Source of the DNA: Thozetella sp. PMI_491
Taxonomy: Eukaryota; Ascomycota; Sordariomycetes; Chaetosphaeriales; Chaetosphaeriaceae
Assembly (NCBI GenBank): GCA_021432635.1
Contig: MU270023.1
Location: 868,001 to 932,000 of the forward strand
Reading direction: 5' to 3'
DNA: 64,000 nucleotides
The notes beneath the pieces were generated by a model. It worked only from the letters and a program-made list of their open reading frames with translations. It was not told where the DNA came from and ran no database searches. Every line of letters starts with the position of its first letter. The first letter of the stretch is position 1. The translations under genes and the position numbers were made by a program. Positions 978 through 44,314 of the stretch are shown in pieces.

Positions 978-3196
978 CCTGCTCTATGGGCCGAGGGGCT
1001 TCGGTGCTGCCGTAGCTCGTGGACAGAACTTGGTGCCGGCCGACGATAACGACAGTATTCGCGAGGGTATGTAATGAGACAGAATGTTTGAAAGCCGCTT
1101 GGTGAAAGGAGCCGAGGCCTCGCGGCTCCCCGCCACACCAGCGCAGTTTAGAGTGCCACAGGACTATCATTGGTCACCAGCCTTCCGCAGGGGCCGGTGT
1201 GGGCATCCTGGCGCAAGGGTGGCCCGGGTGGGTGTCACACAGACCAGAATGGCGCAGGGGTCGCCGCCCTCAGCTTTGCCGCAGGATCAACCAAACAAAC
1301 AATGGATTACCTTGCATACCGCTTCTGGCGCGTCCCCAGCAAACCAAACCCGCATCGGAACGCTGTTTTACTCCCCAGCTAGCATTATCCTGAGCGGCGA
1401 CGCGCAATACGATCCTAATAGCCTTGTTGGAAACGCCGTTCTACTACTGGGAAGAGGTTGCGCAGACGCGTTTGTTAGCATGGAGATAAAGCGCTGAGAC
1501 CATGGCGCTCATGGACCGCCTCCATCTTCGAGCTCTCTGGAAGCCCCTCTTCAAGGTGGAAAGTCTGATCTCATAATGCCGGCGTTCAAACGATCTCGTC
1601 ATTCCAAATTCCCTCAAACAAGCCGATGGTATCAAGCCTTTAAGCGCCTAGATATGCGACCGCATATTTGCAGTGGCAAATATTCATAGCATCCAGCGAG
1701 GGCGCCAACACATCGATCACCATAGAGCTTTCGCCATCCTCGATATTAATCTTTTCTTGTCGTGCACCACTCTACCGGTGATTCTCGACATAAGCGATGC
1801 TACGTGTAGTTAGGCCCATGTTCGTCCCGGCCACCGCCTCCATGCTCTCCGTGAGAACAAACAGGGGAGTGCCTCTTCTGAGAAGGAAGAAACAGGAAAG
1901 TGGGGTTGTCAAATCCTTGCGAGCCCTGTCTCACTGAAGCATTGTCACCGATTCGATCTCGGCCTGTGCCGCCAACGCTTAATGGATGGGCAATGGACTG
2001 GTTTACAAGGCAAAGCAGGTCAATCCCGCACCTGAGTAAGCTCTCGTGGCGCAGTGATTTCTATCACGTCGCCTTCAATCTAGGATGCGTTAGCAGGGGG
2101 GCCATGGTGGTATCTCGACGACATTAATACTTCAACCGAGTATTTTTTGGAATCCCCAAACTCCTTCTCCAGCAACGCGACCAGCTTGAGGGCGCTGAAG
2201 TACCGCGCTTCGAGGCGAGTCATTTCGGCCATTGGGAGGTGGAGGTGCCGCAAAGACAAAGGATCACGCTTTGGGGTGCCCTGAATGTGGACGAATGGGC
2301 AGGGACGAGGGCACGCGGGCCTGCTTAATACTTAGTACGTTTTTCTCTATTTTAACTTAGCCAAGCGGGCTGGCACAACCTCGGTGTCCTTATCCGACAG
2401 CTGCGGTGCGGTCGGCTTCTGCGATGCATTTCAAATAGTGAGAGACGCGGTTAAAACCACGCCTATTCCCTGGTAATTGGGTAGGAGAGACACAGATTAG
2501 TATAGGGGCAGATTTGCCCAGCCTAGCATCGGTTGGCGGGGAATGTCTCTGGGCAGCTGCTCAGTAGTCAGGCATCAATGCAACCGGGACGCAGCCCACC
2601 CGAAACCAGCTGCCATTCATTGCATACGGCAGGGGGCCTTGTCCTGGCGGGCCTGCAGCGATGCATCTGATTGCCTCAAACGCGAGCTGTAAAGCCTGTA
2701 ATCCGCGGGCTGCGAGGAAGATGCAGCCAATTGAGGGCGTAATGACCCTGTGGCGGCTGCCTATCATTGGCACTGCCGCACCCTTTGGAGCAGGAAGGGG
2801 GAAGTCTTGCCACACCACCCACAAAAAGAAACTGGTGTATTACTGAGTACCTGGTACACATCACATAGTGAATGCGAATCTGGAGCCTGCCCAAACCTGG
2901 CATTTCCAGATAAACCAAAATGACCCAAAGTCAAAATTGGGGCAGAGGAGAGCTATCCTATACTTAATGTGAATGTGCAGTGATTGCTCGCGTGATTGCT
3001 CGGATGAAAGAATACCGACTGCTATGTTTACGGCGCGGGTGGCCCGAGTCTTTGTGCCCGGCAATCTGCACCGCCTCACTCAAGGGAGCAGGGGTCGCTG
3101 GGCCGTCTCCAGGGGGCTAATCCTACGTTTTTAGGAGGACTCCGATATCTCATCACGAGAAGACATCCTCTCGCCCAGCGCCGGTCTGGACATCAC
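978..3196. other. Spacer with possible decayed coding sequence
   Basis: No intact gene is seen. On the minus strand, 2232-2080 encodes a 50-residue open frame (start MAEMTRLEARYFSALK) that looks protein-like. Further minus-strand stretches between 1440 and 1870 read as protein-like segments broken by stops. I do not recognise the parent family. The most likely reading is a decayed gene upstream of the kinase; chance open frames are possible. The rest (2340-3196) shows nothing I can support. Confidence 0.3.
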
Positions 3197-5234
3197 ATGC
3201 ACCAACGTGATTTTCGTAGGCATACCGTGGACTTCTTTCGTTGGAGTCAAGTGGCAATTGCAGTGAAGATCGAAATGGCTGTTCCAAACAACCGAACCTC
3301 GCTCGAGCCCGACTTCCTGCGCCGTGCCATCAACAAGTATGAGCTCGACCATGTCTGGCCTAAGTTCGAGGCAAAACTCGGCGACCTGTTTCTTGCTGAA
3401 GAAGAAAACTGCCGAGTGGGGATTGCTCAAATCGTTCCGCCGTTGCCGCAGGCAATCGCTGGCGACCCTGTTTCTTCCGGTGAACGAAGTTCATTAGAAT
3501 GGGTGTCCACGGCAAGCAGGCTGCAAGCTGTACTTGAGGTAAGTGACATTATTTTCAACGGGAGAAAAAGGTTGATACTAAGAACACCCCACAGTGCAAG
3601 ATGCTCTCAAACGCTAGAAGAATGATGTAATGCCATCTTTTTTAGACCGAACGGAAGCTATTCGTAACGCTAAAGCCCCCCCTAGAATCCTACATCGCCT
3701 AAATTCGTGGAGCCGTATGAGCCTTACCTCCGGCATGTTCCAGGCGATATGCAGGACAAGTTTATTGACGCCTCGATTCTTGAAGATATCCATGGGCATG
3801 GGAAGAAAACTGTCCTCTGGGGACGAGCACTTCATGGCTTGCTACAGCTCCTTCTCAATCCCAGAGGGGCAGCAAAAGTCGAGGGAGGAAGGGAACGGCG
3901 AAGACGACAAGAGAGAAGGTGACAGGGCAAGCGGTGGGTGTTCTCGATATCTGACCACTTACCTTAACTAAAGGATGCATACTGACACGAACCATGTTAG
4001 AGCTATGCTACAATCTGCGCCACTTCGAACTCCATGGGCGAGATCTTGAGGATCCGTGGTCTTGTCGGCAATCTGCTCTGCATTTCAAATACTGCCACGA
4101 TACCAGGCAGTCCAGTTTTATTATAATTCAGCCGCCAACTGCCTTTGGTTTTGGCCCGAGTGACTGGCAGCCATGCGAAATCTCGCACCCGATGAATATA
4201 CACCTTCGATATATTGCGGCTGCCACTCAGGGTTGGCGAGAATATTTGGACTACATGTCTGAGAAACTGAAGAAATTCGTGAGTCAGATCAATCCTATTG
4301 GCGTTCCGACTCGCCACTTAGCGAAGCATATAGGAATATCTGCTGAGTGAGGCATGTGCTGATCCCCTCTCTACATTTTTGTGTAATAGGATGACCAAAT
4401 AGCTATATCCAAACCGTACGGCCAATTCCAAATTGGCTTTTCCTGTCTGCAGAAGATACACAATATACGGCGCAAGCTGCATCATGCAAACTCGATCCTC
4501 GCAAACACTACGCGTGTTCTCGCCGTCATTCAGAAGCACGAAGATACACTCGCCCAGAAAAGCACAACTCCCGCCTCAATCCATGATAATTTCCAACGCG
4601 AACTCCATAGCATCTCCGGTGAAGTGGCAAGTCATCTAGAAACTACGCAGAAGCTCTTGAATCTCTCGAACGATATCAGGTCTATGGTGAGACTCCCTTG
4701 AGACACTGGCCCCCTTCTCAAGGAGAATCCGATAATAACGGTAGTACCTATCAAGTACAAAGACATCTTGGAACTACACAAACAAGAGCTTCTGCACAGC
4801 AATGGCATGAAACTTGCGCAAATTGCCCAGGCAGACTCAACCGAAACCGGCGTTATGGTGTCTCTGGCGGACAAGACGGCGCAAGACTCCCGTACAATGC
4901 GTATTGCGACTGTGGTTGCCATGTTCTACCTGCCTGCGAATCTAGTCATGGTGCGTCTCCCTCCCTCGTTCGTCTAGCCTTGTTGATTGAATGACGGCAT
5001 AATAACTTGGTATCATCGCACTAGTCCTTCTTCAGCACAACGCTAGTTTGGTTCCAGGATGACGCTGTGTTGCGGGTACACCCGGAGGTGTGGATCATTG
5101 TCGTGGCAACGATTCTATTAGCTATCTGTACAATCTGCACATCGATCTGTTGGGGAGAGAGGGAGAAAAGGCTCGACGAGAAATGTAAAGGCTTAAACCG
5201 TCATAGAGACCGGTATTACAGGCACAAAGGATGA
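3197..5234 (+). CDS. Fungal CorA-like membrane protein
   Basis: Model of six exons: 3197-3538, 3618-3918, 4001-4278, 4390-4686, 4723-4950 and 5025-5234. All phases agree, giving about 551 residues. The start could instead be the in-frame ATG at 3275. The central block NSWSRMSLTSGMFQ and the block LRHFELHGRDLEDPWSCRQ are typical of fungal proteins annotated with a CorA-like transporter domain. A coiled-coil-like helical segment follows. The C-terminus has two membrane helices: one around IATVVAMFYLPANLVMSFF and one around VWIIVVATILLAICTIC. That layout is as in CorA. The canonical GMN motif of true Mg2+ channels is not seen, so transport activity is not shown. Intron 4 (4687-4722) would be only 36 nt, so that junction is the least certain. 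Confidence 0.72.
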
Positions 5235-7715: not shown

Positions 7716-10197
7716 CTATAACAGGCTGATGGTCGCATCGGAGAACCTTTGCTCCCATTCGTCGTGGAATTTGAGCAGCGTCGTCTTCACAAATCCCACC
7801 CGAACATACTTCTCTCCTCCCGTCTCCATCTCCTTCAACAGAAGAGCCTCGCTCCTGTGATCCTGATTGTGCCCTATACCGGTGACATAGCGTCGAACGA
7901 GCAGCATGCGGACCAGCTCCCGGGTTGTCGGCCGCACGCCAACATGGTCTGCCCAGACACGTGCAAAGTCGCCGACTTGCTCGTCCCCAGTCTCCGAAAC
8001 GTACAAGCACATCTTTTTTTCTTCCTCGTTCCCGCTGGGGCCCCAGTACGCGTCGAGCAGCTTGCCCTGCACCTTCATGTAGCCGGAAACTACGGCCCCG
8101 AGGGGCGGGCTATCCTCGGCCGGAGTGCATTCGACATGAAGCACCTCCACGTCGAGCTTTTTGAGATCTGCGCCACCCTCATTCTCGTTTTCAGGGTCTG
8201 TATAACGGGCCCCGTCGACCGCTCCCCAGGACCAGCTCGGGGCGCGGTATTCGCTCGGTGGCTCGCGAGGCTGGGCGACATACCATAACAGCCCCTCCCC
8301 GGCAACGTTTGCCCATAGACCTGCGGAATAGGCCCCGAGGCTATCCCCATATCGGTCCGCATAGTTTCGTGCGAGGGCTGCCATGGCAATGAGCTTGTCG
8401 GACGGGTAGGAGATCATACGGCGGGAGTAGTCGGTCACCAGCCTGTTCCAGACACCGACGACGCCCGGCAGAAATGTACAACCGAGCATTGCGTCCGACG
8501 CGATGGTAATGGCCTTGCCTCTACTAAGCATTCTGAGAAAAGGGTGCTGCGTTGGCGGGATTGTGTTGCTTATTGACGTCCCATCCGACAGGTTGGCAGT
8601 GACGGTCAACCTAATGGGAATTATTCGGAACACCTCATCTGACGAGTCGATTTCTGTCATGTCATCGTCCTCTTTCACGTTGATTTGGATCGATGCATCC
8701 AAGCCAACCATATGCAGCTCCGGGCGATTTCCCAGCTCGGCGAGTTTCCGCACCTGGTTGATCATGGCCAGGAGACGACCGTTGAAAGGGATATATGTTA
8801 TGCCTTCTGGGAAGTCATCGGGCTTCGTGAGAGACTCCTTTGCCCAGGGCTTCGGTTTTCGGCCATCTTCGAGATGATAGTTGACATTTCCGTCTTGTGT
8901 GCCCCATAAGTTGCCATCGCAACGGAATATCATGCCACCAGTGGACGGAAATGTGAGTAGCCGCCGGCAGAGGTTTTGCTCCTGCAAGATCCACCCTCGC
9001 ATCGCGGCTGGCTCGGCGTCTGCGTCGTAAGAGGGCATCTCATCTATTGGAGCGAGGTAGAGCACATCTTCCTCGCCTTTCTCGGAGAGGAAGGGGAGCT
9101 GGAAGAACTCTGCCTCGGACTTTTCATCATCTTGCAGGATTTTGGCAACAGCAGAGATGCGCGCTTCGTCCAGAAAGCCCTCATCGACGGAACTGGTCCC
9201 TGAGGTCTGGATGACTAGCGTAGCCTCGCTGTAGTAGCGATGGATTACCGAAAGCTCCCGTTGCAGGTCTTCTGAGTCATCCTGCCAGATGCACATTGCA
9301 TCTATCCACAAATACTTGAGCCCGAGCCCATGTGCCACGCGAATCGCATCCCGAAATACCGCCGGAAGCGAATCTGGCGCTATGCTGCTGCTGTAGGCAG
9401 ACCGAGCCAACTTAGCGAAGTCACGGGGTCGACTTTCCCGACCCCATGTGTATGACAAGCATGCGTACTCCCCAGACTCCTCGGGTCGCGAGTCTCGAAG
9501 AAGCGCAGCTGGCATTGCCGGATCATCCGTCTCTACCAGCTCTAGGATGCGCGTCGGCAAGCATGGTGCCTCACCTTTGTCTTTGCACGACGCATGGTTG
9601 GCTTTACATGCCGTAATCCACTGCTTTGCAAGCTCCTGGTCAAATCCGGCCTTGTTGGGCTCCATATCTCGTGGGGATAGGAAGGCTTGGTTGGCCGGCC
9701 CGCCTTGGAAGCAGTCAAGTCAGCACGGCGCCGTGCTCAAGTTCGGGGGAAGGCTTACCGTATCGCGAGAACACGCTGAATCTGGTGTGGAACGGCCACA
9801 TCCTTTCCGAGCCCGACAATATACACCTCGCGTCGATAGCGTTGATCAGATCAGGCTCGACCCCGGGAGGGCCCCAGAATTCTAGAGTAATTGTTGTCGG
9901 CTTCAAGCCGTACTGCTGGACATCTTCCCAAGTACCCGGGAGGCCAAACTTGTTCTTAAGGAGAGCACACCATGAGCAGATATCGACATTTTTATAGAAA
10001 GTCTCGGGCGTAATTTCGTAGCAGATGACTCGCTTGAGTGCGTCATCATCGCTCATCCATTTCAGATGAGTCCGATAGGTCTCGCGGCTGAAGAAGTCTT
10101 TCCATCCTTCGTCCCCCCAAGGATTCACTCTGCACGAGTCACACAGCGGGTCGATCCCGTGCTGCCGGCGCTGAACGATAGCGATTTCGCCGCTCAT
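7716..10197 (-). CDS. HET-domain (heterokaryon incompatibility) protein
   Basis: Two exons, 10197-9759 and 9667-7716, encode about 797 residues. The donor GTAAGC and the acceptor GAG leave a codon split 1+2, which restores the frame. The N-terminal part has a Cys-rich opening (DPLCDSCRVNPWG). The HET domain follows, with the family signatures ACLSYTWG, LPAVFRDAIRVAHGLG and YLWIDAMCIWQDD, then a Tyr/Ser-rich block (HRYYSEATLVIQTSG). The order and spacing are those of canonical HET proteins, which trigger cell death on allorecognition; many are orphans of unknown trigger. The long C-terminal half ends with a typical tail containing APSWSWGAVDG. Its role as an incompatibility determinant is inferred from the family only. 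Confidence 0.9.
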
Positions 10198-35624: not shown

Positions 35625-38600
35625 TCAGCTCATCTTCGACTTTTCAATCGGCTCGATATCAACGCTATACTCACGAAGCAAGCGAACAGTGCTATTATGG
35701 CCGTTCTTAGCTGCCCAAGAGAGCGGTGTTTGGCCAGAATCACTCTTTGACTCGATATCGGCCCCTTTCTCAAGAAGNNNNNNNNNNNNNNNNNNNNNNN
35801 NNNNNNNNNNNNNNNNNNNNNNNNNNNNNNNNNNNNNNNNNNNNNNNNNNNNNNNNNNNNNNNNNNNNNNNNNNNNNNNNNNNNNNNNNNNNNNNNNNNN
35901 NNNNNNNNNNNNNNNNNNNNNNNNNNNNNNNNNNNNNNNNNNNNNNNNNNNNNNNNNNNNNNNNNNNNNNNNNNNNNNNNNNNNNNNNNNNNNTTCCTAG
36001 CTGCCCAAGAGAGCGGTGTTTGGCCATAATAGGTATCTTTTGACTCGATATCAACCTCTTTCTCGAGTAGACGCTGTAGGACACTACCAAGCCCAAAGAA
36101 TGCCATCAAATGCAGTCTCGATATATGCGGCGAGGCAGGACCGTGGTTACCATCAGAATGAGGGACGTAAAACTGTATTTGTATCGACCTTTGCACATGG
36201 GCTTCCCGTTCTATGAAACTCAATATCTCATTTGTCGAAATGGAAGAGCATCGAGCATGGTGGCCCCAGTTATTTGCCGAATATTTGTAGAGTGGATTTG
36301 TTTCCAGCCACTTCTGCGGGTCGTCCTGTGTGGATCCCCAAGGCCCTCCGAAGGTGTCAAATGACAGATATGTAATGCAAATTGTTGTGATCTCGTTCTC
36401 CGCATTCGGAAACCATTTTTCTCGGTTCTGCCCGAGATAAACCCTCGCGGAATGATGAAATAAATTGACCGTTCTCTCGGCATCGTCTCCGTTGCTGAGG
36501 ATCACAAGTCCAGCGCATGCTGATAGGATGTTGGCTATCCGGGGAATACGGGATTGGCTCAACTCAGAATCCCCGGGCGCTACTGCCAATGCATGAAGGA
36601 GCTCTAGAGCAGAGAGCGGCCGTCGCGCGCAAACGACCCATGAGAGAGTCTTCATCGCGAGGCGTTGCCGATCTTGTCTGTCCTTGCCGATCCGCATCAT
36701 TGTTGCTTCGTAAAAGGAATCAAGAAAACTAAAGTCGCTTAATTTAAGCTGAAGCTGTGAGTGAGGGAGACCCGATCGCCCGTAATGCGCGAGGCTCATT
36801 TGAGCAAAAAGAAACCTAAGGCAGTCCAGTCAGAAGTGAACTTCTTAGTAAATTAAAATCAAACTTACATTCCATCAGTGTAGTCCTTGATCGTGGTTTT
36901 AACACCGACCCATGATTCCTGGTTGGCCAGGCCGGAAGGCAGGTGTTCCTTCTGAACTTCCAGAAAACTCTCCACATCTTCCTCACTAGCGCGATATCCT
37001 AATATTGTGCCTTCAACATCTTTGGCGGGCAAATCTACTCTTGCCGTTGCAAATATTTTTATTGCTCTTTTTTGGATGGCCAAAATGCTAGACAGGAAAG
37101 TTTGCTGGCACTGGGCTGTGCATTCATCAAGTCCATCAGCAATGATGAAGAGCTTCGGCATAATGTCAGCAATATCCCCCAGAACGGTGATTAGTTGATC
37201 GATTGTTGGTGCCGCTCCGCTCTTTATGGAGTCGGTATACCAAGACGTGAGTCGGCTAGGTAAGCCACCCAAGCGTCGGAAAAGTTGGCCGACGACGCTT
37301 CCAAGGAGCGCTTGAGCAGAATGCTCGCTATTTCTTCGGTAATCGCAATAAATATAGGCAACTCCACACGGAGCAGGTTGTGGAAATAGCTTGCAAACGT
37401 GTTCAATCACGGCAGAAGAGAGTATAGTCTTTCCAGTCCCTGGTGCACCCAAACAGACCAGTAGCTGCTGGTTGTTCGATAGCCACGAGTTAAAGTCCTC
37501 GTGATCGAGGAACCAGTCACATGTTCCGGGTGTATGCAGTCTTAAGTAATTATGGTGCTCTTCTTGGAAGTCCAATTTGGTTATCCAGTCAAAATTGACA
37601 CTGGAGTCTGTGGCAGCGGGGTTCGACGAGGATGTGTCCGCAGAATCATGCTGTTGCTGTCCCCATCCCAGGCCGCTAACCTTGGCAGAAAGGGTAGTTG
37701 CGTTCATCCAGCCATTAATCAGATGTGAACTCCCCTGACTTGGCTGGGGGCAATCATTGATAGTGCGAAGTCGCGAAGAGAATTCTTCCGTTGATATGTT
37801 CTGTCCCCCCATGTCTGCGAATTCATCGTCATTCCCGTATAGTTGGTGAAATTCTGCGAGATCTGCGCTCTTAAGCGCATCTTCGTGTGTCGAATCTGAC
37901 CGACTGCCTGGACGACCACTTGCAACGGCGTCCGACTCTTTGACGTCGTCTCGAGCGGGAAGTGCCAAGAAGAATGCGCGATTGAGATGGTTTGCGACAT
38001 GCTTTAGGAGCCCAGCATCGCTGTCCTGCGGAGCGAAGCAAACAAAACACCATTTCGTTAACAACGCAGGTCGTCTCGCTTCTTGGAGGATACGACGAGT
38101 ATTAGATTGATTAATGCTAGGATGATTTAGGCTCAAGTGCTCGTGGAATTGTGCAGCTGTGTCGAATAGAAATTTATCTCCCTGAGGCAAGTCTGCTTCG
38201 TGGTGCGAGAGAGGACACTGCCAGTCTTGGTCGTGAGGTTGACTGATGTGTGCCTGCCACTCCCGAAAGCTTCGGTAGGTCTTGGCCGGTAGATCGCAAT
38301 TTTCAAATAAGCATATAAATGGGTGTAGGTCTTCTAGAAGATGCCTCTTCCACCCCCTGGACTTCCTGTGGCTGGAGAATGTTTTCTCCGGGTACACTAA
38401 ACAGCAGTACGGACACATCTTTTCCTTTTCGCCTGGTTGCAGTTCTGGGGGAGGAGGTGCTTCGAATGGCCCAGCAGAGCCTAAGCCACCGGCCTCCGAG
38501 AGGGACCCGTCTGACGATGGCGCAGACACAGATTTTGGTAACCGGAACAAAGTGGACTGGATTTCGGTGCCGACTGTCTCGCTAGGGGCATCATCTGTGA

Positions 38601-39593
38601 TTTCTTGGATCTTTGGAGGTTCAAATTTCAGCCTACTGGAGATGGAGAGCTGCTGTTTGGTCGGTAGCTCGGTGGGCGGAGCACTTCTAAGCTCTACCTG
38701 CTTCGCACTTATCTTAGCGAGGTTGGCTGTCGCTGACACTTCTAGTCTTGCTTGGTGTTTCCGAAAGTAGGCAAGCTGTCGCCTACGGTTAGAGATGGCG
38801 GCAATGCAGCGATCAAACATTTCCTGGCGATAATTTTTCTGATCTTTGTCCAATCCACCATCATCCGGCTCTGGGTTTAGCCATCTTGTCGTTAATACCC
38901 TTCGAATGAAATCCTCGAAGCCTCGGGTTGTATCGAATCGAACGCGAGGAACGACTTCTCCTATATCATCGCCGGGCTCTCTTACGTAGACATACTCGTT
39001 ATCGACGCCATAGAGATGAGGCACTCGCACAAGACCATTTCGGTTGCTCGCCCTTCGAATGGCGAGCGAGATTTGATGAAGGGTATCGATTGTGCGCTAC
39101 ACGGCACGCAAGGCTGAGATTCGAACAGACGATGCATTTATTTTATCTTCGAGCAGGTTGAGCCCAAAACTAGCAATCATGCCGAGGCTAGTGTCTGCGA
39201 AATCATCGAGTTGCTCGTCGGTGATATCTTCCCGATCTGCAAGAGCTGCGGTACTTATTAATACTGCGCGAGAGACCGAGTGATACCCTCACTGCAGTGA
39301 CCAGGGAGTCGCTTACCCGATAGTAGATATCCACAGAGAATATCAAGATTGCCCTCAACCGCAACTCTCGCCACCAAGGCTGTACGGAGTCGATAGTCGA
39401 GGGATGCTTGCTTGGCAGCGAAGACACCGATATTAGATGCCCATAGGCGGAATCTGCTTAGCTGGGAGCTTGCTATACGTTTGGGTTCATCGGTAAAATT
39501 CTCCTCGCAGACAAGAAATAACTCCTGTGCTTTGCCAGCTGTGTCGGCGATCGAGGATAGACTGACACCGAGGGTGGCCGGGGCGCTGTCCAT
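35625..39593 (-). pseudogene. NACHT-ankyrin (NLR-like) gene with premature stop and assembly gap
   Basis: Exons 39593-39317, 39245-36869 and 36815-35625. The start MDSAPATLGVSLSSIAD is followed by a helical N-terminal domain. Next come C2H2-like zinc-binding segments (CPYCCLVYPEKTF; HLLEDLHPFICLFENC; WCFVC). The NACHT ATPase has Walker A GAPGTGKT near residue 692 and Walker B LFIIADGLDE. The gene ends with ankyrin-type units of the form QTPLSWAA. This is the STAND layout of fungal innate-immune or incompatibility receptors. Exon 2 has an in-frame TAG at 39099-39097 (about codon 142), in the conserved stretch between SALRAV and RTIDTLHQIS, where the family has no break. CAG to TAG is the simplest cause. 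The rest of the frame is clean, so the break looks recent, unless it is a sequence error. The N gap falls in the ankyrin units. Confidence 0.82.
35778..35993. other. Assembly gap (216 N) in ankyrin repeats
   Basis: Both flanks encode nearly identical ankyrin units; GCTGCCCAAGAGAGCGGTGT occurs on each side. The reading frames on the two sides are offset, so 216 is a placeholder or the gene is shifted. A continuous frame would need a true length of 3n+1. Confidence 0.95.
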
Positions 39594-40011: not shown

Positions 40012-40839
40012 CTAAATAGGAACATAAATATCACAAGGGTCGCCTCGTTCATCAATCCCCGTCCGCTCCTGTAGATCAAACTCATCAACATCGTCCTCAT
40101 CCAGCGTCTGACCTGCCCGTTCAATGATATAATCGGCTGTCGGTCCATCTTTCTTGGTAAGCATGGCACCGTCAACATACTCCTCATGCTTAACCCTCCC
40201 TCTCAAGTTGACCCTGATCGCTTCGAGTTCGAAAGCAAACACAATCGGTCCCTCAATCGTCCGGGTATGAGTACCAAGACGCCCAGAACTGTATGATCCT
40301 TTAGGACCTATGGTGGTCTGTATTACAGGTATCTCTATTCCAATCTGCGCCGTCACCTCGTGTTTCTTTTCCTCGAGGGTGGTAATGGTGACATTAGACA
40401 CGGTTTTGATGCCGGTAATGACGAAACATTTACTCCTGAAGCCACCGTCCTTGAGATATTTCTTCACTGCGGTATCTCCGGCTGCCTTGGAAATGTAGGA
40501 TAGAGATGGCGTGAACCTGCTAGTGCTCATTGTGTCACACGAGTAGTCCACTTGGAATGTTGAGTCCGCTGTGAAGGATGCCTCCGGGCCAATTGAAACA
40601 GCTTCAAGTACGTTGGCAAACAGCTCGACACTCCACTGCTTGTCCTTCTTAGCGGTTCCGGAACAATTTGTTTCCACGAACTCTTCGGGAACCAGCGTAT
40701 CGATGCTCTGTACGAGGCTTGGTGATGAGAGGGGCTTCTGCGGGGTCCTCGGATTCGATATCACACTCCCAAGCGCTACCTCGCCCGGCCGGATGCTCCA
40801 CGATGGAGCAAGGAAGTATGTCTTGTGAGAAGCGGCCAT
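40012..40839 (-). CDS. Fungal gasdermin-like protein (HET-Q1/RCD-1 type)
   Basis: Single exon of 275 residues. The start MAASHKTYFLAPSW, the strand VALGSVISNP (21-30), the central FRSKCFVITGIKTVSNV (134-150) and VFAFELEAIRV (200-210) fit the beta-rich fungal gasdermin family as I know it. There is no signal peptide or membrane helix. After about residue 225 a roughly 50-residue acidic tail (TLDEDDVDEFDLQERTGIDE) ends the protein. Podospora HET-Q1 has a similar size and is cut near its C-terminus by the linked subtilisin-like HET-Q2, which frees a pore-forming fragment. Here a subtilisin-like protease gene lies divergently 479 bp away. The tail would be the natural region to be removed. Family assignment rests on pattern, length and neighbourhood, not on a search. 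An alternative is another small beta-rich fungal protein of unknown function. Confidence 0.62.
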   Translation of the reverse strand: MAASHKTYFLAPSWSIRPGEVALGSVISNPRTPQKPLSSPSLVQSIDTLVPEEFVETNCSGTAKKDKQWSVELFANVLEAVSIGPEASFTADSTFQVDYSCDTMSTSRFTPSLSYISKAAGDTAVKKYLKDGGFRSKCFVITGIKTVSNVTITTLEEKKHEVTAQIGIEIPVIQTTIGPKGSYSSGRLGTHTRTIEGPIVFAFELEAIRVNLRGRVKHEEYVDGAMLTKKDGPTADYIIERAGQTLDEDDVDEFDLQERTGIDERGDPCDIYVPI

Positions 40840-41318
40840 TATGGAGTATTTAACATTGGTTTTTTGTGATTCGCATGACCATGGGAAAGCCCGGCCGACT
40901 CCAAGTAGTTGGCATAGAGCTGTGAGAATGGACGAGAGCTTTCAGCTGATTCTGTCGAGCCGTCTCCTAAGCACGTGACTATATGATAATCATCGGACTG
41001 AGCTGAAATCGTCCTGTGCACTTTCCCCTCCTCATCGTGAGCCGATCGTTCAGCCACGCAAATCACCAACTAGTATTTCACTTAAATTGCAGCAGTCCAG
41101 ACTGTGCCTACTCCCAGATGGAATTCAGTACTCAATTCATACATACTATGTCCAGGTAGTCGGTCGCGAAAACGAAGGATCTTAGCCCCACAGCCTTATC
41201 TAAAGGCAATGCTCATTGAAACAGCGTACTGACCTAACCTGGCGTTGAATTGGACCTACTTCACCAACGGAACTATCGATGCCACTTGAGAGATCTATTT
41301 CCTCGTCTCGGTACAAAC
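40840..41318. promoter_or_regulatory. Shared promoter of gasdermin-like and protease genes
   Basis: 479 bp between two divergent start codons, which would allow co-regulation. No specific binding site was recognised. The protease start is uncertain, so the right border may shift. Confidence 0.5.
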
Positions 41319-44314
41319 ATGAATAGGAGGCGGTGTCTCCTTCAGTTCCTGTTGCCATCCTTTACAGATGGCGCAGCTGGGATATATGCTCGCACCAAGC
41401 GCCGAAAGGACAAGGCTTTTTGGGCATCGTTTGTTACTCCTTGCTTTTTGTTGCGCTCTTCCGACTATGCGCTACATGCGCTTGACGCCGAACATGATGA
41501 GCTTGTGTATCAACTGCTCGAATATCTAGACAAGGCTGTGGTGATAGAGAAGGCGGATATGGCACAGGTAACCCTACTTTACTTGACGGTACGTGAGATA
41601 ACCCCCGATGGGCTGATATATGATGCAGAAATATTCGTCTCTGGTGTTTCCTCATCTTGAAACATTGAGACAACTGATCAAGGCGGCCACCTCGGATGAC
41701 GAGGAACAACTGGCCGAAGGTTGGACGCTAGTAAAGCCTGAAGATGAGCTGCGCTGCAACGACTTAGTGAATCTTCTAAACCAGCTCGCAGAAGCGACAA
41801 GAGATTCTTCAAAACAACCACTTCCCGAAGACGCCGAGTCCGCGACTCCACCGCTACGATCTTCAATAGCACCTGCTATCACTCAGCTATTCTCTACCAT
41901 CGCCAAATACTTCCAGTGTGGGTGTCACGCCCACGCGCCACACAGGGCTATACTGCTGCTCTTCTCTTGCCAGCCCATTTCCTCGAAATATTCCGATTCC
42001 AAATACTTCACGTTACTCTTGGGCCGTAAAAAAGAAAACAGCAAGTTGATGTGGAAGGAGGCCAGTGTAGTAGTTGAAGAAAAGGAGTACGTTCCTCAGT
42101 GCTTGTTTGACTCAAGGCATGGCGTATAACTTAATAAAGGCCTAAATCCCGAGTACTAATGACCATTCCTGCCGACTATCGCGGAGACCAGAAGCCGGAC
42201 CCTGCACGATCTTCTCCAGTTGATAATCTGTGCACAATCATAGGCAGCAACTCGTATCCTCGACTGGGCCTCGCCGTCCGTGGGTCGATTTTGCATCAAG
42301 TCGATACACTCGACAAAGAGAGCTCCGGATATGAGCAAGCCGAGCTTATAAGCCTCGAAGAAGGACTAATTACCAACCCAGCTGAGCTTGCCATTAACAT
42401 CAAGACATGTCTAGCAGTTGTCTTATCTTATTCAATGCTAGACTTTTGCGGCGAGGCTTGGTTTCCGCTCGGCTGGACCAAACGGGGGATAAAGCTATTG
42501 CAACACAGCGGTAGATTGTTTCTGAGACCAGCCCTGGTCACTTCTTTTCGCCAGCACCCAATCACTCCTGAGTTGCCAAATGTATCACGCAACAAGGAGC
42601 TTCTTCTTCTTCATGCGATTGTTCTGATGGAAGTCTTCGAACAAGAAGCTTTACCAATTCACATCGGTAACAGCTCTCCTGGCAATATCGAAGAACTTCA
42701 TGCGAAGGTGAGGGAGCTGTTTGACCACATCAAGTGGGGCGTTTCAGAAGGGTTCAGACAAGCTGTAGAAGCTTGTATTGATGGCTTCCCAAAAAGGCAC
42801 CCAGAAGCCGACGAGAATCCGGATAGGATATTCGAAGAATCCTTTTGCAGGTGTATTATCCAGCCTCTGGAGCGAGACTTTGTATCGATATGGGGCAAGA
42901 AGGACCCAGATCAAGTATTAACAGCAGAGGGTTATCTTCCGAGCATCCAGCGTATAAAGCCGACACCGCCCCCGAAGGACCCTCGCTTAAAAGTATGCTC
43001 CCCAGATCTAACAGAATTACTTTCGTATCTGTTAACAGGTTAAGCAGTATCATAAGGGAAAGCCGAGGCCGCCGATATCTAACACATCTATGAGCGTGCT
43101 TCCTTCCCCGGCTGCTTATTGTCCAATAGCTTCGAGACATGGAACTTCCGAGCTCAAGTTTTTCGATGTCGACGACGGTATAGATCATAGACAGTATGTT
43201 CCTTGCATTGATTGTCTGGCATGATAGGATAACTCACCACGCCTTTCGCGTTGCATAGAATCAAAGGTTCCCTAACTTGGTTTAATTCATTCGAATGCGC
43301 CCGTGCCCAAATTGCCGAAAAGGACAAACAAAAACCCGGCAGGAGAGCTCAGATACTAGGGAAAGGGATAAAAGTCGCGATCCTGGACACTGGAATCGAT
43401 CTTTCCAACTCTTGGATGTCGTCTAAGAGGAACAGAATTCAATGTTGGCCTCGCATCGATTCCTGTCACGACAGCGATGGACACGGAACTCAGGTCGCAT
43501 ACCTACTCCTCCGACTCGCGCCCCTCGTTCAGCTCCGAGTCGCCAAGGTCAGCAGTTCTCAATTGCTTAAAGACGTGGCTGAGATTGAGGAAATCGCCAA
43601 GGTAGGCCCCCGGTTGTATGAGTTACAGGGCGCTCCTCGGCCTTTAGCATCTAACGCTCGATCTCGTAGGCGATTAGACACTTTTCATCAGATGAAGGCG
43701 ACCGGGTTGACATGATCAACCTTTCTTTTGGCTTTCCTCGATACTCAAATGAGTTGCAACCGATCCGCGAGGCTATCCGCTTTGCCCGAGCCAACGGCGT
43801 TCTTATATTCGCTGCTGCAGGGAACGACGGTGGTAACCAGCGAACGTTTTGGCCCGCCATTTTAGACGACGTAATCGACATTCATGCTACTGACAGTAAC
43901 GGAAAGGCGTCGACCTTCACCCCGGCGGACGGAGACCGACACATCTGCACTCTAGGGGAGGCCTTACCGTCATGTGAGGAGCATCCAGACAACGCCGAAC
44001 AAAACGTCCACCGAAGCGGAACCTCGTTTTCTGTGCCAATCGCCGTAGCTACTGCGGCCATTGTACTAGGTTTTATGGATCATGCCGCCGAGCTAAGTGC
44101 CGAGGAGCGCGGTGGACCGGATGATTCCGAGGCGCTACGGCCACGGCTGCGGACACGGACCGGAATGGAGAATGTCTTGCGCAAGACATGCGTTTTACAG
44201 GGAGCGACAAATAATGCCGGGTTTTCGTACATCGCGCCATGGTTCTTTTTGGGGATTGAGGAGTCTAGTCGAGTAGGGATTATTAGGAACGAGCTCTGGA
44301 ATAGTGCTGAATGA
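41319..44314 (+). CDS. DUF7580-like + subtilisin-like serine protease (HET-Q2 type)
   Basis: Six exons, 41319-41567, 41629-42123, 42192-42992, 43039-43193, 43259-43601 and 43670-44314, sum to exactly 895 residues. Branch sites TACTAAT and CTAAC support two of the introns. The first 500 residues are helical and resemble the fungal DUF7580 region (LAINIKTCLAVVLSYSML). A linker with KFFDVDDGIDHRQ follows. The S8 domain then shows the full triad: Asp610 (VAILDTGID), His642 (SDGHGTQVA) and Ser800 (HRSGTSFSVPIA), with oxyanion Asn733 (AAAGNDGG). There is no signal peptide, so it should act inside the cell, unlike secreted subtilisins. The N-terminal region probably senses or inhibits. The start is uncertain; ATG 41319 is the first in frame. 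Its divergent neighbour is the gasdermin-like gene, the expected substrate. Confidence 0.88.

Follow-up and report, generated by a model that had tools for sequence, protein, structure and literature searches.

Passages on fungal gasdermin (fGSDM) clusters in PMC10197012 report protease clustering for about 80% of the fungal gasdermin genes and clustering with S8 proteases for about 63%. Two-gene clusters of an fGSDM and a Q2L protease are attributed there, and in PMC12881547, to Clave 2022, and the cluster passages of these papers name WD40, ANK, TPR, NLR and "kinase-like" partners. HET-Q1 of Podospora anserina is reported to be cut near F238 with a loss of about 5 kDa, and RCD-1 of Neurospora crassa to exist as two allelic variants that work without cleavage, in passages of PMC12881547 that also call what the sensors of gasdermin cell-death pathways respond to a major open question.

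Here, we examined a window of 64,000 nucleotides, bases 868001 to 932000 of contig C9 (MU270023.1) in the 72.3-Mb genome of Thozetella sp. PMI_491; other loci are named by contig and, where needed, position. Unlike RCD-1 as reported, the gasdermin of this window has a protease partner, and the pair adds one more to the fungal gasdermin/protease clusters already known. We consider it highly probable that this is an intracellular cell-death pair in which the subtilisin acts as sensor-activator of the gasdermin. The parts worth following are the quantified genome-wide association of the two genes and a predicted, so far unrecognised kinase-like sensor domain in the protease.

A divergent gasdermin and subtilisin gene pair

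The gasdermin gene occupies positions 40012 to 40839 of the minus strand and encodes 275 amino acids in a single exon. Twenty other proteins of a large database align to this open reading frame, 19 at 42 to 60% identity and one at 25%, including proteins of Neonectria, Melanomma, Botrytis, Recurvomyces and Septoria; therefore, it is a real, conserved gene. Pfam gave no family match for the sequence, and a PDB search with the single sequence retrieved no gasdermin, only a chance match to an isomerase (E 0.29). The homology missed in this way was recovered by profile, with matches to HET-Q1 and RCD-1 (1e-19 and 4.7e-23; 1.5e-11 and 1.6e-8), and the profile alignment with HET-Q1 spans the same protein body. 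The predicted structure, of moderate confidence (pLDDT 69), has a gasdermin fold, with RCD-1 as the best fold match. Judged by profile homology and predicted fold, the protein belongs to the fungal gasdermins.

The last 48 residues of the gasdermin contain 15 D/E and 5 K/R, and each of the nine remaining full-length paralogues of the genome likewise has an acidic tail (10 of 10). Based on pLDDT and residue composition, the acidic C-terminal tail comprises residues 236 to 275 plus the stop codon (40012 to 40134, minus strand) and is a putative inhibitory element. It is preceded by a predicted flexible linker, residues 214 to 235 (40135 to 40200, minus strand; pLDDT below 50), which is the candidate place of activating cleavage. 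This linker includes a conserved GAML motif (residues 224 to 227; 40159 to 40170, minus strand), in which G224 is invariant and A225, M226 and L227 are nearly invariant across 21 aligned rows. A hydrophobic pair occupies the GAML position in 8 of the 10 full-length paralogues.

The two ATGs are separated by a divergent intergenic region of 479 bp (40840 to 41318), beyond which the DUF7580-subtilisin gene extends over positions 41319 to 44314 of the plus strand. Our splice model has six exons (41319-41567, 41629-42086, 42140-42992, 43039-43193, 43259-43601 and 43670-44314) and five introns of 46 to 68 bp, all GT..AG, and yields 900 amino acids, compared with 806 in the deposited public model (P0022). 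Pfam places DUF7580 at residues 164 to 483 (41869 to 42881, plus strand; 5e-20) and the Peptidase_S8 domain at residues 606 to 824 (43359 to 44083, plus strand; 1.4e-19). The S8 catalytic triad is intact, with plus-strand codons for Asp615 at 43386-43388, His647 at 43482-43484 and Ser805 at 44024-44026. Relatives of the protease begin about 19 residues further upstream. These conserved residues, which by eye are unlike a signal peptide, are missing from the model that starts at 41319, and the gene model is uncertain at its 5' end (region 41279 to 41319, plus strand).

An earlier note on this DNA had described the single-exon frame of 275 residues with an acidic tail, the opposite-direction spacing of 479 bp and a complete S8 triad. 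All three hold, the triad residues given there as 610, 642 and 800 being shifted by 5 in our model. The protease gene proposed in that note also stands, while its length of 895 residues is replaced by the one given above.

Further along the minus strand, the other flank of the gasdermin carries an NLR-type gene about 420 bp away (35630 to 39593, minus strand), which the earlier note did not mention. Its open frames, joined by eye, encode a zinc finger-like region, an NPHP3_N/NACHT domain, a winged helix and ankyrin-like repeats; the repeats are alike and are broken by a stretch of N at about 35778 to 35993. The window also contains a 649-amino-acid open reading frame with a HET (heterokaryon incompatibility) domain at 7716 to 9665 on the minus strand.

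Linkage of gasdermin, S8 and DUF7580 across the genome

A whole-genome search with the window protein and two paralogues from the first search gave 17 gasdermin loci. Outside this set are pieces on C31, found with a query picked through its DUF7580 neighbour, and a broken copy at C6:342k seen only in a fetched locus. A Pfam S8 match lies within 10 kb at 12 of the 17 loci (0.41 expected; P 2e-16) and a DUF7580 match at 14 (0.22 expected; P 2e-24), where expectations and P values assume uniform placement. Since tblastn adds an S8 domain near the C77 and C7 gasdermins, S8 is found near 14 of the 17. The nearest S8 is 9.9 kb from the C66 gasdermin and 6 to 7 kb from those of C45, C49 and C19:266k.

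Seen from the protease side, a gasdermin is nearby at 12 of the 16 S8 loci that have DUF7580 no more than 3 kb away (11 of 16 when counted from the DUF7580 match) versus 1 of the 62 remaining S8 loci (Fisher p 5e-10). The S8-gasdermin linkage is specific to S8 loci that bear DUF7580. We class the window protease as Q2L type (HET-Q2-like, putatively gasdermin-activating) on its intact S8 triad and its place within 10 kb of a gasdermin beyond chance, as judged by the distance of 479 bp and this genome-wide test.

The association has exceptions. Four of the 16 DUF7580-S8 loci have none of the 17 gasdermins beside them, one of the four adjoining a broken gasdermin, and the gasdermin loci of C11, C1 and C19:327k lack both S8 and DUF7580 in the surrounding 10 kb, with no CHAT protease among the matches listed. 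CHAT as the usual partner was rejected: by eye, only 1 of the 14 listed CHAT matches lies within 10 kb of the 17 loci, which leaves CHAT as an occasional partner at most in Thozetella. That match (C6:77.3k) lies 4.1 kb away from the gasdermin of C6:72k. The gasdermin stands between it and a DUF7580-S8 gene 2.3 kb away (C6:69.4-78.1k); a second activator is therefore possible at this locus. At C66:178.6-183.2k, a gasdermin adjoins a DUF7580 gene without detected S8, and the frame in between is alpha/beta-hydrolase-like by eye. Gasdermin-like frames that are broken or bear stops occur at C6:342k (2906 to 3950 of the fetched locus), C31:333-337k and C19:327k, pointing to gene birth and death.

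In other fungi, which were covered through protein records, Neonectria ditissima very likely holds a neighbouring orthologous pair, namely, gasdermin AK830_g10540 and protease AK830_g10541, which have consecutive tags and are both on contigs of size 77097. Database proteins P0007 and P0030, from the gasdermin and protease searches, are likewise both on contigs of 4489. Cudoniella and Diplogelasinospora account for two of the three full-length protease relatives named from other fungi. For both, the matches listed, with the two protease searches covering up to 8000 candidates, include the protease relative and no gasdermin on a contig of the same size; this either speaks against pairing being universal or comes from gaps in annotation.

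Co-divergence of the pairs and alternative explanations

We compared the gasdermin and S8 trees for 12 gasdermin/neighbour-S8 pairs, leaving out C19:266k, C66 and C6:342k and including the C131 and C7 gasdermins as partial frames. The two are correlated (Mantel r 0.68; p 5e-5, the lowest value that 20,000 permutations allow), and r stays at 0.58 to 0.69 across seven subsets (p 0.0004 to 0.003). Nearest neighbours are the same in both trees for 5 of the 12 (C10, C77, C6:72k, C131 and C7), the window pair not being among them; the grouping of C22 with C6:72k has support of 0.999 in the gasdermin tree versus 0.13 in the S8 tree. DUF7580 is correlated at 0.33 with the gasdermin (p 0.012) and at 0.31 with its own fused S8 (p 0.015). 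When columns are matched, S8-gasdermin values are 0.55 to 0.74 versus 0.28 for the DUF7580 core columns. This pattern is what would be expected from enzyme-substrate contact between S8 and gasdermin combined with an independently evolving sensor, and the evidence is indirect.

By eye, 4 of the 12 pairs are arranged head-to-head, 5 are tail-to-tail and 3 are tandem, and a shared bidirectional promoter was rejected as the reason for pairing. Sister gasdermins differ in their orientation to the protease: C22, C131 and C77 are all tail-to-tail, whereas their respective sisters C6:72k and C7 are head-to-head and C10 is tandem. The gasdermin-protease association has therefore survived rearrangement. 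At the S1 wall, placed by subtilisin numbering, 21 S8 sequences show Ala only in C22 and C6:72k, with Gly in 18 and Asp in one, and the same two are the only ones among 10 full-length gasdermins without the hydrophobic pair before the tail. C22 and C6:72k are one sister pair, so this is a single event, and covariation of the substrate pocket is only a lead.

Could the two genes be together merely through duplication as a block? Blocks duplicated together would likewise yield matching trees, and linkage and co-divergence would then reflect a shared history rather than an enzyme and its substrate. We give this reading little credence, given the differing orientations of sister pairs and the behavior of DUF7580, which is fused to the S8 domain and yet tracks the gasdermin far less closely than S8 does. 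It is similarly improbable that allelic variants of the gasdermin pair up and act without cleavage in the manner of RCD-1, the protease being degradative or an unrelated neighbour. Such a reading would fit the best fold match, RCD-1, reported as not cleavage-controlled in the relevant passage of PMC12881547. Yet it sits poorly with the genome-wide linkage and the co-divergence with the S8 domain, with the hydrophobic pair and acidic tail kept among full-length paralogues, and with an alignment to HET-Q1 over the same body.

The neighbouring NLR could instead be the real sensor, in a three-gene cluster of NLR, gasdermin and protease. It adjoins the gasdermin on the same strand, and the part of PMC12881547 concerned describes death clusters of two or three genes. 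By eye, an NPHP3_N match lies within 10 kb at 5 of the 17 gasdermin loci among the matches listed (C9, C10, C65, C22 and C77), compared with 0.75 to 1.47 expected (P 0.0007 to 0.012 over the range of NLR numbers assumed); the matches listed are a minimum. This association makes a three-gene cluster possible, not established. Yet 12 of the 17 loci have no NPHP3_N within 10 kb among the matches listed, and the genome is very rich in NLRs; we regard the neighbouring NLR as an unlikely sensor. Three further NPHP3_N matches (C28:97607, C15:1168123 and C96:125539) lie in open frames of about 24,000 to 27,000 residues, which are probably stretches of N taken for open sequence.

We favor activation of the gasdermin by the subtilisin. 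The gasdermin would be made inactive, its short acidic tail holding the pore-forming body, and the divergently transcribed subtilisin would be the sensor-activator, its helical bundle and kinase-like DUF7580 restraining or triggering S8. Upon a non-self or stress cue, the protease would cut the linker around residues 214 to 235, near the conserved G-A-M-L or just after it. The tail of about 5 kDa would leave, and the freed body could oligomerise into membrane pores, causing death of the hyphal compartment; loss of the C-terminal piece would in this way make the window gasdermin cytotoxic. The earlier note had read the pair as executioner and activator, and that reading is supported in kind by family identity, triad, predicted fold, linkage and co-divergence. 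It withstood both refuting checks that the note itself had set: the predicted structure has a gasdermin fold, and relatives of the 275-residue protein in this genome neighbour proteases far above chance. We infer that the protease cuts this gasdermin and where, that pores form, that a cue sets off the process, and that its purpose is allorecognition or defence.

The N-terminal half of the protease with its predicted kinase-like domain, and known systems

The N-terminal half of the protease is predicted to consist of helices, two further helices and then a kinase-like domain. The predicted structure of DUF7580, from a model of the relative P0025, has kinase topology and is preceded by helices. 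DUF7580 lacks the HRD and DFG motifs of an active kinase: the equivalent stretch, identified by eye, holds no HRD-like motif in any of 17 relatives or of 12 paralogues from the same genome (one partly covered), and a DFG-like motif is likewise absent from the 17 relatives. A sequence-level link to kinases was rejected. In hhalign comparisons, DUF7580 reached a probability of 0.1 to 0.2% against five kinases of the same genome, no better than a gasdermin control, and a PDB profile search with the DUF7580 alignment found no kinase; the evidence for the kinase fold is therefore the structure prediction. On that prediction, DUF7580, which the earlier note had suggested might sense or autoinhibit, has a degenerate-kinase (pseudokinase-like) fold. 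Two open frames (C47:496927-499077 and C21:823838-826066) each contain matches to both a protein kinase and DUF7580, so the domain is also used with kinases.

Helices are predicted in the N-terminal part, but the fold comparison hardly covers residues 1 to 187; Pfam gave no HeLo match among the 17 members. MLKL is absent from the 50 entries listed for the fold comparison, which excludes nothing. In its predicted layout, this half is likened to MLKL, a helical bundle plus pseudokinase, by domain order and rough lengths only. Unlike MLKL, the Thozetella module is fused to a protease and gave no sequence match to kinases. It is conceivable, though doubtful, that bundle and DUF7580 form an MLKL-like pseudokinase sensor fused to the subtilisin, a necroptosis-type switch gating a pyroptosis-like gasdermin executioner, with DUF7580 marking the whole protease class and S8 co-evolving one-to-one with its own gasdermin, independently of the sensor half. 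More broadly, the unnamed domain DUF7580 would gain a role in controlling proteases that activate gasdermins, along with a likely fold, that of a degenerate kinase. One genome would also offer 12 candidate pairs of enzyme and substrate as a panel on which to study how a cell-death protease stays specific for its own gasdermin among many paralogues.

The passages on fGSDM clusters in PMC10197012 and PMC12881547 do not name DUF7580 as a mark of gasdermin-linked S8 proteases. The S8 neighbours of 14 of the 17 Thozetella gasdermins come close to the protease clustering of about 80% stated for fungi in PMC10197012. Unlike HET-Q1/HET-Q2, the Thozetella pair, covered here in one genome, is not known for allelic incompatibility, and HET-Q2 is given as 388 amino acids in the relevant part of PMC10989679, compared with the 900-residue window protease and its DUF7580 module. 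Both systems nevertheless combine a gasdermin of about 275 amino acids (278 in HET-Q1), a short C-terminal tail, an S8 gene as partner and a homologous body, and the loss reported for HET-Q1 in PMC12881547 fits in size the tail release proposed here.
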